64,000 nt of DNA from Planctomycetota bacterium (lineage in GTDB: Bacteria > Planctomycetota > Phycisphaerae > Phycisphaerales > SM1A02): positions 186,001-250,000 of the forward strand of contig JAIOPG010000004.1 in the NCBI GenBank assembly GCA_021414025.1, given 5' to 3'. The position numbers were made by a program, and so were the translations under genes. Below, piece after piece: positions 130-12,984 of this stretch (the first letter of the stretch is position 1; every line of letters begins with the position of its first letter). The notes under the pieces were generated by a model. The model ran no database searches. It saw only the letters and a list, made by a program, of their open reading frames with translations, and was not told the origin of the DNA.

Positions 130-591
130 TCACTCGGCGGTTTCAGCCTTGCGGAACAGACTGTAGATCGATTCGGCGCACTGGGCCTCGTACAACTTTT
201 CGCGAAACTCCGGATTGGTCATCAGTCGGCTGATGCGGCCCAGCGCCTGAATGTGCTCGGAGACGCACTCGGGCGGGCTGACCAGCAGGACGATCAGCCG
301 CACCGGCTTCTTGTCGATCGAGTCGTACTCCATGGGCGCCCCCGGCTTGCCGATCGCCATGGCAATGCGCTTGACTGCGGCGCTCTTGCCGTGGGGCAGG
401 GCCAGGCCCTCGCCGATCCCCGTGGAGCGCTGCGATTCGCGCTGCCAGACGACCTGCTTGATCGCCGCCGCGTCGGAGACCGCCCCGGAGGCCGCCAGTG
501 CGTCGACCAGCTCATCGATCACCCCGTGCTTGTCGCGGGCGATCAATGGAACTTTGACGCAATCAATATTCAGGACTTCAAGAACATTCAT
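130..591 (-). CDS. ptsN: PTS IIA-like nitrogen-regulatory protein (PtsN type)
   Basis: This 153-residue protein matches the length of single-domain EIIA-Ntr/EIIA-fructose proteins. The phosphorylatable histidine is H67 in the motif ALPHGKS, and the surrounding pattern (TGIGEGLALPH) is typical of PtsN. Proteins of this family are phosphorylated by HPr-like carriers and regulate other proteins rather than transporting sugar. The ATG at 591 was preferred over an upstream in-frame start at 645, because the PtsN fold begins with the NVLEVLN helix. The gene follows the RsmB-type methyltransferase gene and precedes dnaJ on the same strand. No EI, HPr or PTS permease is present in the window, so its phosphoryl donor is unknown. 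Confidence 0.8.
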   Translation of the reverse strand: MNVLEVLNIDCVKVPLIARDKHGVIDELVDALAASGAVSDAAAIKQVVWQRESQRSTGIGEGLALPHGKSAAVKRIAMAIGKPGAPMEYDSIDKKPVRLIVLLVSPPECVSEHIQALGRISRLMTNPEFREKLYEAQCAESIYSLFRKAETAE

Positions 592-651
592 GGGAAAATA
601 AGTCGATTCGGTCGATGCTACCAAGAGCAGGCCCCCCGCGTCCATCGCGGA

Positions 652-8777: not shown

Positions 8778-9581
8778 CTAGCCGCCTGCGGGCGGAAGCT
8801 TGGCGAGAGGCAGGCCGAAAAAGCGCAGGGCATTGGCGTCGAGCGTGTTCAGGAACGACGCTTCGTCGGCACCGCGGATCCGGGCGAGATGGCGCGCCAC
8901 CACGATCGAATGGGCGGGGCGATTCGGCTTCGCAGTGCGCATCGGTTCCGGGCTGAGGAAGGGCGCGTCGGTCTCGGCCATGATCCGGTCCTCGGGCACC
9001 AGCAGCGCAGCCTGCGCGACCTCGGGCGCGTTGCGGTAGGTGACGACACCGGTGAAGGAAATCCACGCGCCAAACTCCAGCACGCGCCGCGCCTCGTCGA
9101 GGGTGCCGGTGAAGCAATGAAAGACGAAGCGGTCGCGCGGCAGGCCGCTGGCGGCCAGAATGGGGATCAGATCATCGAAGGCCTTGCGGCAGTGGATGAC
9201 GACCGGCTTGGAGAGCCCCTCGTCGGACCAGCGGGTGATGCGGTCGAGCTGCGCGTCCAACATCGTGCGCTGCAGCGAGGCCGCGGGCTTTTCATAGTGG
9301 TTGTCCAGGCCGAGCTCGCCCCAGGCCACGCAGCGAGGATGCGCCCCGCAGGCGCGAAGCACGCCCCAGTCCACGCGGTCGTCGGTGGAGAGCGGATGGA
9401 TGCCGGCCGTGAACCAGAGGCGCGGATCGCTCTCGGCGAGCAGGCGGGCCTGGTCGGAGTCCTCGCTGTTGGTGCCGATGGTGATGCAGGCGCGCACGCC
9501 GGCCGCCTCGGCGGCGTCCAGTTCCTCCTTGAGCCGGTTGCGAAAGGGCTGATAGGTGAGATGGCAGTGGGTGTCGATCAT
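8778..9581 (-). CDS. tatD: TatD-family metal-dependent hydrolase
   Basis: The 267-residue TIM-barrel protein belongs to the TatD DNase/amidohydrolase family. Metal-binding and active-site motifs are visible in order: DTHCHL at residues 3-8, GELGLD near residue 83, VIHCRKAF near residue 130, HCFTG near residue 155 and ETDAPF near residue 203. Family members are 3'-5' exonucleases. The start ATG at 9581 overlaps the stop of the CPA2 transporter gene. An earlier in-frame start would lie entirely within that gene and was rejected. The gene is followed nine bases later by tatC, but no role in Tat export is established for the family. Confidence 0.9.
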   Translation of the reverse strand: MIDTHCHLTYQPFRNRLKEELDAAEAAGVRACITIGTNSEDSDQARLLAESDPRLWFTAGIHPLSTDDRVDWGVLRACGAHPRCVAWGELGLDNHYEKPAASLQRTMLDAQLDRITRWSDEGLSKPVVIHCRKAFDDLIPILAASGLPRDRFVFHCFTGTLDEARRVLEFGAWISFTGVVTYRNAPEVAQAALLVPEDRIMAETDAPFLSPEPMRTAKPNRPAHSIVVARHLARIRGADEASFLNTLDANALRFFGLPLAKLPPAGG

Positions 9582-10945
9582 GCTTGCAACTCGCCGGACC
9601 GTACCACTCCCAGTCGCATCAGGGGCGGCCCGATGATTTCGTTCACCACGATGGTCGCCAGCATCAGGCTTTCCAGCTCCCCGACCCAAGGCTCATTTCG
9701 AAAAAGCAGGGAAACTTCGGCCGCCAGCGCAATGCTGACGCCGGCCTGCGGAACCATCGCGGTCCAGAGCCAGCGGCGCACCGGATAGGCAACGGCCGCC
9801 ATCTGGCAGCCGACGCGAAGTCCGGCCAGGATGCCCGCCAGTCGCGCCGCGGAGATGCCCAGGGCCAGCGGCCAGATCTGCAGGAACGAATCCAGCGAAA
9901 TCTTCGCGCCGGTGACCGCAAAGAAGATGGCGTAGGTCGTCGGCAGCAGGTTGTCGACGGAATGAAAGAGTCGTCGCGAACTTTTCGGGGACGCGTTGGC
10001 CAGCGCGAAACCGGCGGTGATGCCGGCCAGCAGCGGCGCAATGTCGAGCAGGCGCCCGGCGACGGCAATCGCGAAGCCGGCGACGATGACCGCAAGATCC
10101 AGACGGAAGCGGGTGAGATTGGCCAGCAGCCCGAGCACCATCGAGAACGCCAGCCCCACGACGAGCGACCCGACCAGATGCCAGGAGACCCCTAGCGCCG
10201 CGCTCCAGCCACCGCCCTGCGACTGGCTGGCCGACCAGGATGCCAGCAGGCCGCTGATCAGAATGACCAGCGCCAGATCCTTGAGCACCGTCATGGCCAG
10301 CGCCGTGCGGGCGAAGGGACCCGTCGCCCGCGTCTCGCGCAGAAGCGCCGTGACGATGGCGGGACTGTTGGCGATGGCCAGCGCGCAGAGCACCGCCACG
10401 AGAAACCATCGCTCACTCGGCGTGCGCAATGAGAGCAGCGGGACCGATCCGGAGATCGCGGCCAGCAGCACCGCGACGAAGAGGACGACGCCGCCGGCGT
10501 CGCAGAGCACAAGCTGCGTGATGCGCCGGCCCGCGGTGCGCAGAAAAGACACGCGGATCTCGCTGCCGGCCACCAGTCCGATCAAGCTCACGGCCAGCGC
10601 GTTCATGAGTTCGAGATAGCGCAGCTCGCCGCGCGGAACCAGCGTGGGAAATCCCCGGGGCAGCCAGGTGGCAAAGGAGGGTCCCGCGAGAATTCCGAAG
10701 AGCAGGTAGGCCGTGACGCGCGGCAGGCGGAACGTCGCCACGATCTCGCCGGCCAGGAATCCTCCAAGCACGAGCAGGCCCAGCGCGAGAATGGTGTAGA
10801 GCGCCTCGTCGGGCGGGGGGGCCGCCTGCGAAAGCGCGTTACCCGCCGGCACGGCGACCGGCGGATGCGCCAGGCTGAGGCGCAACAGGCCGACCGCCAC
10901 CACGGTCGCGAGCAGGGTCGCCGACAAAGCCAGCACCCGCTTCAT
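9578..10945 (-). CDS. CPA2/Kef-type cation:proton antiporter-like membrane protein (first of pair)
   Basis: The 455-residue protein has an N-terminal hydrophobic helix and then about 12 predicted transmembrane helices of the monovalent cation:proton antiporter-2 family. In the discontinuous core it has ANSPAIVTALLRE followed by VLKDLALVILI. D223 in the latter aligns with the membrane aspartate that binds the cation or proton in Kef/CPA2 carriers. There is no C-terminal TrkA-N (RCK) regulatory domain, unlike KefB/KefC. The ion carried is not predictable. The start overlaps the stop of the second transporter-like gene (ATGA), so both are probably made together. Confidence 0.75.
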   Translation of the reverse strand: MKRVLALSATLLATVVAVGLLRLSLAHPPVAVPAGNALSQAAPPPDEALYTILALGLLVLGGFLAGEIVATFRLPRVTAYLLFGILAGPSFATWLPRGFPTLVPRGELRYLELMNALAVSLIGLVAGSEIRVSFLRTAGRRITQLVLCDAGGVVLFVAVLLAAISGSVPLLSLRTPSERWFLVAVLCALAIANSPAIVTALLRETRATGPFARTALAMTVLKDLALVILISGLLASWSASQSQGGGWSAALGVSWHLVGSLVVGLAFSMVLGLLANLTRFRLDLAVIVAGFAIAVAGRLLDIAPLLAGITAGFALANASPKSSRRLFHSVDNLLPTTYAIFFAVTGAKISLDSFLQIWPLALGISAARLAGILAGLRVGCQMAAVAYPVRRWLWTAMVPQAGVSIALAAEVSLLFRNEPWVGELESLMLATIVVNEIIGPPLMRLGVVRSGELQA

Positions 10946-12180
10946 GAGCGGCTTCTCCAAAGCAGGGGAAACAAGTTGCTGAGCACGCCGCAGGCGACCA
11001 GCGCCAGCAGGATGCCGCGCTGCGTGTCGTTGGCCCCCTCGACCAGCGAGGCGATGGCCAGCGGAATGGCGATGGGCGCCTGGCGGATGGCTGCGAAATG
11101 GATGACCTGCGCGCCGGGCTCATTCCAGGCCTTGCCGCTGAGCCGCCAGGCCACCGGCGTCTTGAACGCGAAGCGGAAGGTGATCAGCGCCGCGGCGATG
11201 ATCCAGGGCCAGAAGCTGCCCAGGTCGCCCAGCATCGCGCCGGCAAACAGGAAGAACATGCTGGCGACCGCGGCCTCGCTCTCGGTGACCAGGCGTTCCA
11301 GTCGCCGCATGGCGCCGCTGCGCATGTTGGTGATCACCATTCCCAGCAGGCAGGCGCCGAACATGGGCGAGCCGTTGAGCGCGATGGAGACGCCGCTCAC
11401 CAGGGCGAGCGTGCCGACCAGCGAGGCGATGATCCGTCCCTCGCTCCAACTTTCGCGGTCGAGGATGACGCGGATCGCGGTCGCGGCGATGGCGGCCACG
11501 ATCAGGGTGACCACAAGTCCAAGCGAGCCGCGGGCTGCGTCGATGACGGTCGTGCCGTCCGCCAGGGTGGAAGCCTGCAACATCGCGACGCCGTGCAGCG
11601 CGATGGCAAGGACCGCCGCCAGGCCGGCGCCGGCGTGGATCAGCGTGGCCAGCTGCGGCGAGCGCGTATCGAGCCCGCGGAGCGAGCGGAGTTCGCCCGC
11701 CCATCCCATCGTGGCGCAACCCGTGAGCGCGCAGGGAATCCACATCGCGCCCAGCGAGGCGCCGGGATCCATGAGCCGCAGTGCGGTCGCGGTGAAGCCG
11801 ACACCGGCCGCCAGGCTGAGCAGCGAATCCAGGGCAAGCCACTGCCAGAGCGCCGCGGGAACCGCTGCAAGCACGGAGCGCTTGAGCTGCAATCCGACGA
11901 GGAGACCGATCCACGCAAGTCCAAGCTGGAGCAGGGGGCGCAGCTCGGTGAGGGAGCCGGTCTTGAAAAGGTCGAAGCCGATCGGACCCAGCAGCAGGCC
12001 GGCCGCGAAGGCGACCCATCCGCCGCCGATCAGCGCGGCGGCGACGGGAATGCGCAGCAGCTTCGCCGCCTGTCGGGTGAGCGAGAAGGAGGCGAGGCCG
12101 AAGGCGATGGAGCCTATCGCCAGCGCCGAGATCGCCCGCGTGATGTCGCCGAAGGTTTCCGTTGCCAGGGTCGCCGTCAC
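10942..12180 (-). CDS. CPA2-like membrane protein (second of pair), transport aspartate apparently absent
   Basis: The 412-residue polytopic protein shows about 11-12 hydrophobic helices and a CPA2-like layout (RIPVAAALIGGGWVAFAAGL, then LLQLGLAWIGLLVGLQLK). At the position where its neighbour has VLKDLALV, it reads LIHAGAGLAAVL near residues 180-191, with no acidic residue. I infer that it may be a regulatory or structural partner, or may use a different ion path. The start is GTG at 12180, overlapping the PII-like stop by four bases. No cytosolic RCK domain is present. The family assignment is weaker than for the neighbouring gene. Confidence 0.6.
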   Translation of the reverse strand: MTATLATETFGDITRAISALAIGSIAFGLASFSLTRQAAKLLRIPVAAALIGGGWVAFAAGLLLGPIGFDLFKTGSLTELRPLLQLGLAWIGLLVGLQLKRSVLAAVPAALWQWLALDSLLSLAAGVGFTATALRLMDPGASLGAMWIPCALTGCATMGWAGELRSLRGLDTRSPQLATLIHAGAGLAAVLAIALHGVAMLQASTLADGTTVIDAARGSLGLVVTLIVAAIAATAIRVILDRESWSEGRIIASLVGTLALVSGVSIALNGSPMFGACLLGMVITNMRSGAMRRLERLVTESEAAVASMFFLFAGAMLGDLGSFWPWIIAAALITFRFAFKTPVAWRLSGKAWNEPGAQVIHFAAIRQAPIAIPLAIASLVEGANDTQRGILLALVACGVLSNLFPLLWRSRS

Positions 12181-12530
12181 AGACCGAGGCCCATCACCGT
12201 CTCCACGGGAAGCGTCACACCAAGGGGGCGGCGCTCCACGGGCAGCTGCGACATGAAGCGCATGAGCGCGTCGATCTGCGCCCGGCTCGCGATGGACAGC
12301 ACGACGCGGCTTCCGGTGGCTTGGGGAAGCAGGGAGGCGAGCCCTGCGAAGATGGGCATCTCAGAGCGGATGATCGCACCCAGCCCGCGACTCTCCAGCA
12401 CGGTGGCGCCCTGGATGCCGGCGTCGATAAGCGCCGTCACCAGAGGATCAAAGCTTTCCTCGGTCCGGGCCACCAGGACCAGCAGCCGCTCATCCTGAGA
12501 GGGCCTTTCGGCCGCGGTGGAATCATGCAT
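12177..12530 (-). CDS. PII-like small signalling protein
   Basis: This 117-residue protein resembles the ferredoxin-like PII/GlnB fold. There is a first strand LLVLVA (residues 16-21), a helix, a second strand GATVLESRGLG that echoes GlnB's GMTVTEVKGFG, a variable loop at about 52-68 in the T-loop position, and a last strand-helix pair SRVVLSIASRAQIDALMRFM. PII relatives bind nucleotides and gate membrane transporters by loop insertion. Canonical PII signatures are not fully present, so ligand binding is unproven. It lies between the IIA-like gene (8-base overlap) and the CPA2 pair (4-base overlap). This suggests a regulatory role over them. Confidence 0.55.
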   Translation of the reverse strand: MHDSTAAERPSQDERLLVLVARTEESFDPLVTALIDAGIQGATVLESRGLGAIIRSEMPIFAGLASLLPQATGSRVVLSIASRAQIDALMRFMSQLPVERRPLGVTLPVETVMGLGL

Positions 12531-12984
12531 GTCGTTGATCCTCCTGAAGAATCAATTCCATCAGCGCCATACCGTTGGCGGCGGATTTCAAACGAGCGCG
12601 GGCTTCGGCATCGGAGGCAATCCTGCTGAGTCGAGCCAAGAGGCGCACATGCTGCCAGGGATTGGATGAATCCCCGACCAAAACGAAGATCAGGTCGGCT
12701 GGCGGATTAGTAAAGTCCAATAATAACCCTCTTGGAACTAAAATACAGCCTATGACTGTTCGCTTGATCCCGGCTACCACGGCATGGGGGAATGCCACCC
12801 CCTCAGGAGTGCAGACTGAGCCATTTCGCATTCGGGCCATGAAGGCCTGTTCCAGCGTTGTCGCGGACAATCCGACAATCGGCGACAATTGCTCGCAAAT
12901 GTTGCGAATGAACTGCGTGGGTTCAGGCGATGGGTCCAGTCTTTGCACCAGCTCCGGAAGCAAGACATCCTTCAGCATCTCCAT
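12523..12984 (-). CDS. PTS IIA-like regulatory protein, head of the CPA2 operon
   Basis: The 153-residue protein has the EIIA-Ntr/fructose fold. The candidate phosphohistidine is H67 in GVAFPHAVV, preceded by the family-typical variable GSVCTPEG. The C-terminal half contains ADLIFVLVGDSSNPWQHVRL, matching the core strand and following helix of PtsN. A second ATG at 12978 with GGAG four bases before it is an alternative start. It is the first gene of a minus-strand run that continues into the PII-like protein and two CPA2-type transporters. The phosphoryl donor is not encoded nearby. This is the second IIA-like protein in the window. Confidence 0.7.
   Translation of the reverse strand: MEMLKDVLLPELVQRLDPSPEPTQFIRNICEQLSPIVGLSATTLEQAFMARMRNGSVCTPEGVAFPHAVVAGIKRTVIGCILVPRGLLLDFTNPPADLIFVLVGDSSNPWQHVRLLARLSRIASDAEARARLKSAANGMALMELILQEDQRHA

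Follow-up and report, generated by a model that had tools for sequence, protein, structure and literature searches.

Does a run of four overlapping genes, encoding two small sensor-like proteins followed by two antiporter-like membrane proteins, specify a single machine, and if so, what would each of the four contribute? The question is raised by a locus of the Planctomycetota bacterium represented by GenBank assembly GCA_021414025.1 (GTDB lineage Bacteria; Planctomycetota; Phycisphaerae; Phycisphaerales; SM1A02), a genome of 2.8 Mb that is 97.5% complete. The window analysed here is the whole 64,000-nucleotide stretch at positions 186,001 to 250,000 of contig JAIOPG010000004.1, and the coordinates of its genes are counted from its first letter. 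All four open reading frames lie on the minus strand, in the order IIA, a protein of the phosphotransferase system (PTS; 12523..12984), PII-like protein (12177..12530), transporter A (TA; 10942..12180) and transporter B (TB; 9578..10945). IIA and the PII-like gene overlap by 8 bases, the PII-like gene and TA by 4, and TA and TB by 4 when TB is read from the ATG at 10945 (455 amino acids); the mechanically listed TTG at 10960 (460 amino acids) would lengthen the last overlap to 19 bases. With starts chosen by script, the 4-base TA/TB overlap recurs in 14 of 20 loci of relatives. A first-pass annotation of this DNA had placed four overlapping genes here in this order, as is borne out by the junctions just described.

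The reading favoured here, to which a probability of about 0.5 is assigned, is that the four genes encode a heteromeric, probably electroneutral cation/proton antiporter in which TB transports, TA serves as its partner, and IIA and the PII-like protein form a unit that gates the pair. A stricter version, held more tentatively and at somewhat under even odds, makes the antiporter an obligate heterodimer of the CPA type, in which one protomer is a regulatory platform without an ion site, and the PII-like sensor and phosphorylated IIA replace the RCK domain and gate jointly.

Conservation of the four-gene order

The full order IIA, PII-like, TA, TB was found in all 20 of the larger stretches obtained from relatives. 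Among 61 related genomes (own genome included, as in all counts of 61 below), a PII-like gene was detected in 31, TA in 31 and both in 30; the TA that lacks a PII-like gene begins at a contig end (G009), and the PII-like match that lacks TA (G058, E 0.009) is interrupted by stops. A named collection of 75 loci encoding a PII-like relative (L082-L156) overlaps these genomes, and the two sets of counts are not additive. Its first 57 loci (L082-L138) were collected by the PII-like profile, which leaves a TA or TB without a PII-like gene unsampled there; the full order is present in 52 of them, and the remaining five (L082, L094, L107, L129 and L135) are cut by contig ends. At 50% identity, 28 clusters are needed to group the TA proteins of these named loci, and the order is retained in relatives whose TA is as little as 23% identical to that of the window. 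The same four genes also occur in two further families (L194 and L195; L193, from the same family as L194, is cut). A neighbourhood search had been proposed with the first-pass annotation, and in these samples the four genes are conserved together, an outcome that does not refute the first-pass reading.

The flanking genes are less constant. TatD shares its first 4 bases with the end of TB, TatC lies 9 bases further on, and the transcription unit therefore probably extends past TB into TatD and TatC. Divergent from the module, on the plus strand from 13159, a multihaem cytochrome gene is followed by a gene for a molybdopterin/iron-sulfur type protein; the two resemble alternative complex III, and we take them to be ActA and ActB. 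Matches to both were found in 25 of the 57 named loci. Where a full module has enough flank to judge (40 loci), ActA is present in 20, TatD in 21 and neither in 19; what surrounds the four genes changes, and they themselves are constant. TatD, TatC and ActA/B were rejected as members of the module on account of these 19 loci. A chance neighbourhood was likewise rejected, given the conserved order, its retention down to the most divergent TA proteins and the varying flanks.

Of 343 genomes drawn from the phylum, 21 gave a match to the PII profile and 31 to the TA profile at its cut; many of the TA matches lie in open frames of 550-630 residues, apparently those of ordinary antiporters that carry a C-terminal domain. 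The four-gene set is therefore not universal in the phylum. The module was also encountered in metagenome bins labelled Vicinamibacteraceae, Proteobacteria or Singulisphaera (L104, L137 and Singulisphaera sp. GP187 records), labels that may be wrong, and at L078 and L079, which lie on the same contigs as L131 and L130, TA is followed by two tandem copies of TB.

The two transporters

Both membrane proteins had been called CPA2-type transporters lacking the usual RCK domain. Among the Pfam and NCBIfam profiles, no RCK domain was reported for either, in agreement with that claim, and the family assignment stands for TB; for TA, the predicted fold agrees with it and the cation site does not. TB matches PF00999 (Na_H_Exchanger) at 56.7 bits, over the cut-off of 26.2, and scores 36.3 bits against the NCBIfam CPA2 model TIGR00932, which does not reach the cut-off of 238.3. 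TA (412 amino acids, GTG start) has no Pfam match, and PDB sequence searches returned no strong relative of it. Among TA relatives (set A3), however, Na_H_Exchanger is matched at E up to 0.1 in 6 of 21 (best 1.8e-11), and comparison of the TA and TB profiles using hhalign gave 97.6% and an E value of 4.7e-12. An AlphaFold2 (AF2) model of TA, predicted from 48 rows (the window protein and 47 of 55 references), reached a mean predicted local distance difference test score (pLDDT) of 92.4 and a predicted template modelling score (pTM) of 0.92, and matched MjNhaP1 at Z 28.3 (root-mean-square deviation 4.4, 373 aligned residues), SOS1 at 26.5 and NapA at 26.2. TA is recognised as a CPA-type protein of predicted NapA fold only through its relatives, the profile comparison and this model.

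The two proteins differ at the ion-binding site. In TB, the Asp that forms the second residue of the site pair (D223 in the window) is present in 56 of 56 sequences and is preceded by Lys (K222) in 50. In TA, no acid is found at either ion-site column in any of 56 sequences, DD or KD occurs in none, and 50 contain no acid within 9 columns of the site, the other six carrying one 5 to 8 residues past it; the TA alignment in this helix moves by a few residues between two alignments, and single positions are uncertain. An Arg in a later helix is shared by all TA (R336 in the window; 56/56), all TB (56/56) and all 15 of the single antiporters found in a two-gene pair in other phyla (L139-L155), which have DD at the ion site in 14 cases and DN in one. 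The Lys four residues after this Arg is kept in 55 of 56 TA proteins (K340; one gap) and in all 15 single antiporters, and is not kept in TB. One non-operon paralogue (L137, 4395-6413) is excluded from these motif counts, and TA or TB matches spanning fewer than 300 residues were left out of the alignment.

The Arg/Lys pair, kept despite the loss of the acids, and the intact and confidently predicted fold would also suit a TA that is active itself on another cargo, such as an anion bound by that pair, with TA and TB forming separate homodimers under the same sensors. Distant TA proteins still carry acids, in a graded manner: L194 and L195 have one, L218 has two Glu, and the proteins of a distant planctomycete family (f17) mostly have W-N. 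This alternative is nevertheless considered unlikely, as the known mechanism requires the very Asp that is missing from TA (D156 in KefC; PMC11150392), and TB was found in every TA-containing genome examined for it (7 of 7, at E below 1e-76), as expected of a partner. In a tree of 84 rows, TA formed one group (SH-aLRT, an approximate likelihood-ratio support, of 97) and TB another (61, which is weak), with the single antiporters on the TA side (92); a quick method was used, 7 of 91 rows had been dropped beforehand, and the root lies on a long branch.

If TA and TB instead form one heteromer, as we favour, TB would be the transporting protomer, exchanging a monovalent cation, for which K+ or Na+ is our guess, for H+. 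The exchange would probably be electroneutral, because the site holds one Asp and not a DD pair; this extends to TB, by analogy, the logic of KefC, in which D156 is essential and a QD site, without a DD pair, is regarded as electroneutral (PMC11150392). TA would be a diverged antiporter-family paralogue that replaces one of two TB chains in the pair and acts as a silent scaffold and docking subunit, most likely not as a second pump.

The sensor proteins and their variants

The two small proteins had been described as resembling signal-sensing folds, a description with which the profile match of IIA and the predicted fold of the PII-like protein agree. IIA (153 amino acids) belongs to PTS EIIA type 2 (PtsN/fructose-type) and exceeds the PF00359 (PTS_EIIA_2) cut-off of 27 with 58.8 bits. 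H67, presumably the phospho-acceptor His, is kept in 56 of 56 sequences, as is R51, and H112 is kept in 52; the latter two are assumed to be its active-site partners. The genome contains one match to enzyme I (EI), one to HPr and three to EIIA type 2, and EI and HPr were found in 58 and 60 of the 61 relatives, respectively. Their presence would permit phosphorylation of IIA; with H67 phosphorylated via EI and HPr, IIA may sense the phosphoenolpyruvate/pyruvate state. A role for IIA as part of a sugar permease was judged unlikely, as the genome has no match to PF02378, the only enzyme IIC family searched. The second EIIA type-2 gene also lies in the window (130-645, minus strand, 171 amino acids) and scores above the module IIA against PTS_EIIA_2, and the third adjoins HPr.

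The PII-like protein (117 amino acids, ferredoxin-like fold) scores 15.3 bits against PF00543, below the cut-off of 25, and PDB sequence searches returned no strong relative. Its own relatives (set A2) match PF00543 at E up to 0.1 in 17 of 21 cases (best 5.5e-6), and one from Acetobacterium (L143) exceeds the cut-off with 28.9 bits. An AF2 monomer model predicted from 63 rows (the window protein and 62 of 75) reached a pLDDT of 85.8, and Foldseek gave it 80 matches in the PDB with E no higher than 0.001, led by a PII protein (7.8e-5). The fold alone is insufficient to establish PII-family membership; the sequence family adds support, because the Acetobacterium member passes the P-II cut-off. 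Two short helices (residues 50-57 and 59-65) are predicted at the place of the PII T-loop and may be its equivalent.

The nearest solved structures in a VIA-align comparison were a PII-like Anabaena protein, CPII and SbtB (Z 9.9-9.4), which would suit a carbon-uptake module in which the PII-like protein is a relative of SbtB/CPII and the role of the TA/TB pair is to transport bicarbonate, or to support its transport, instead of serving K+/Na+ balance. However, many PII-family entries lie within one or two Z units, and the ranking within the family says little; in addition, TB retains the CPA cation site, and we regard a bicarbonate role as very unlikely. As part of a regulator of a cation antiporter, which we prefer, the PII-like protein would sense a small molecule, the best guess, by family, being an adenine nucleotide.

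In family f17, the two sensors are found in one open frame in four loci (L199:5961-6794, L200:5933-6763, L202:1058-1930 and L205:6088-6915), the N-terminal half being PTS_EIIA_2 and the C-terminal half PII-like; the N-terminal halves match PTS_EIIA_2 at E values from 0.003 to 5.5e-7, one of the four over the cut-off, and the frame in L203 of the same family is too long to judge. Going by these shared reading frames, IIA and the PII-like protein are likely to act jointly. A five-gene run of IIA, antiporter, PII-like, antiporter and PII-like was observed in one genome (L201:4598-8539).

A simpler arrangement was identified in Firmicutes and Caldisericia (L139-L156), where a PII-like gene is directly followed by a CPA2 antiporter gene (approximately 400 amino acids) in 15 of 18 loci; of the exceptions, L152 and L156 stop directly behind the PII-like gene, and no antiporter was matched in L141. 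This pair, which named strains also carry (Acetobacterium wieringae DSM 1911, for instance), resembles the module in its gene order. It differs in that a single antiporter is encoded, with DD at its site in 14 of 15 cases, and in that none of the 15 loci gave an IIA match.

Regulation of the transporters

The fused frames concern the sensors themselves, and it may be asked whether these act on the transporters at all. IIA and the PII-like protein could have each other, or metabolic enzymes, as their targets and merely share an operon with the transporters; indeed, sensors and transporters are separable, since L218 carries TA and TB without a sensor match and three genomes of one family (L196-L198) carry a PII-like gene with no antiporter match alongside. 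Such co-expression alone appears improbable, given that the order is kept in the named loci while the flanks vary, and that the pairing of a PII-like gene with an antiporter recurs in Firmicutes and Caldisericia without an IIA match. In the gated heteromer that we prefer, the PII-like protein and IIA would together make up a cytosolic regulator that takes the place of the RCK domain and docks on TA. Unphosphorylated IIA would inhibit the antiporter, the sign of control being a guess by analogy with the action of PtsN on YcgO.

The literature, in the parts of each source that were available, provides several points of comparison. Unphosphorylated PtsN (EIIA-Ntr) binds and inhibits YcgO, a K+/H+ antiporter of E. 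coli (PMC11808508), a link also mentioned in PMC7349511. As in the module, a regulatory-PTS IIA is combined with a cation/proton antiporter, and PtsN exerts its control by direct, phosphorylation-dependent binding. However, YcgO is of the CPA1 type and carries putative RCK and CorC domains in its C-terminal region, CorC being the proposed PtsN site, and the available text mentions no PII-like partner (PMC11808508), whereas the transporters of the module lack a C-terminal domain and their gene run includes the sensors. PII-family proteins gate transporters in the cases of SbtB on SbtA and GlnK on AmtB (PMC10710835); there, too, the PII-family protein is linked to a transporter gene, and SbtB acts via adenine nucleotides (PMC10710835, PMC10117731). 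SbtA and AmtB are trimers that match the PII trimer (PMC10710835, PMC10117731), whereas the module combines a CPA fold, known from dimers, with two unequal transporter chains and an added IIA. KefC resembles TB in its CPA2 fold, its single essential Asp and its non-DD site, and its control by a nucleotide-binding cytosolic part may be compared with that proposed for the sensors of the module; however, KefC forms a homodimer and has an RCK domain fused to it (PMC11150392), in place of which the module has two separate small proteins. The first-pass annotation knew of no worked-out example of the four-gene set, and no description of it was found among the matches listed in the open-access literature (titles and beginnings of abstracts) or in the available parts of PMC7143216 and PMC7349511.

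Several observations weigh against a gated heteromer. TB lies away from TA, at a separate place in the genome, in three of the seven genomes examined, which weakens strict stoichiometric coupling, and early TA proteins, going by the acids in L194, L195 and L218, may have transported. In L218, the 12 kb obtained contain no match to IIA or PII. Among four genomes with a PII-like gene and no TA, three (79-90% complete) have no TB match at E 1e-20, and the fourth (G097) has nothing beyond a weaker match to an antiporter, located on a different contig. The PII-like frame of L204, in family f17, does not match IIA. Relatives with and without the module carry EI and HPr alike, and their presence is therefore no specific evidence for the phosphorylation of IIA. 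Unrelated ferredoxin-like domains, those of elongation factors, match the PII-like model at Z 8.3-8.4, a modest margin below the PII family. Finally, control of a dimeric transporter by a PII trimer would run counter to the pattern described in a review (PMC10710835).

The locus had originally been read as a cation transporter set jointly by phosphorylation of the IIA histidine and ligand binding to the PII-like protein. The joint conservation of the genes, the retained IIA residues and the PII fold speak for this proposal; its treatment of the two transporters as equivalent does not survive, as TA has no acidic cation site.

Gating of transporters is known for IIA proteins and for PII proteins, in each case without the other. 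If the present reading is correct, carbon/energy and phosphotransfer signals would be integrated directly on an antiporter, by a conserved gene set with natural sensor fusions, and a PII-family protein would control a dimeric instead of a trimeric transporter. The phosphotransferase chain and an adenylate-type sensor would thus be wired directly to ion balance. The two transporter copies, with ion sites decayed in complementary ways, would offer a natural experiment on the purpose of the second protomer in elevator-type antiporters, and the simpler Firmicutes pair, being present in named strains, makes the question of PII control of an antiporter testable at once.

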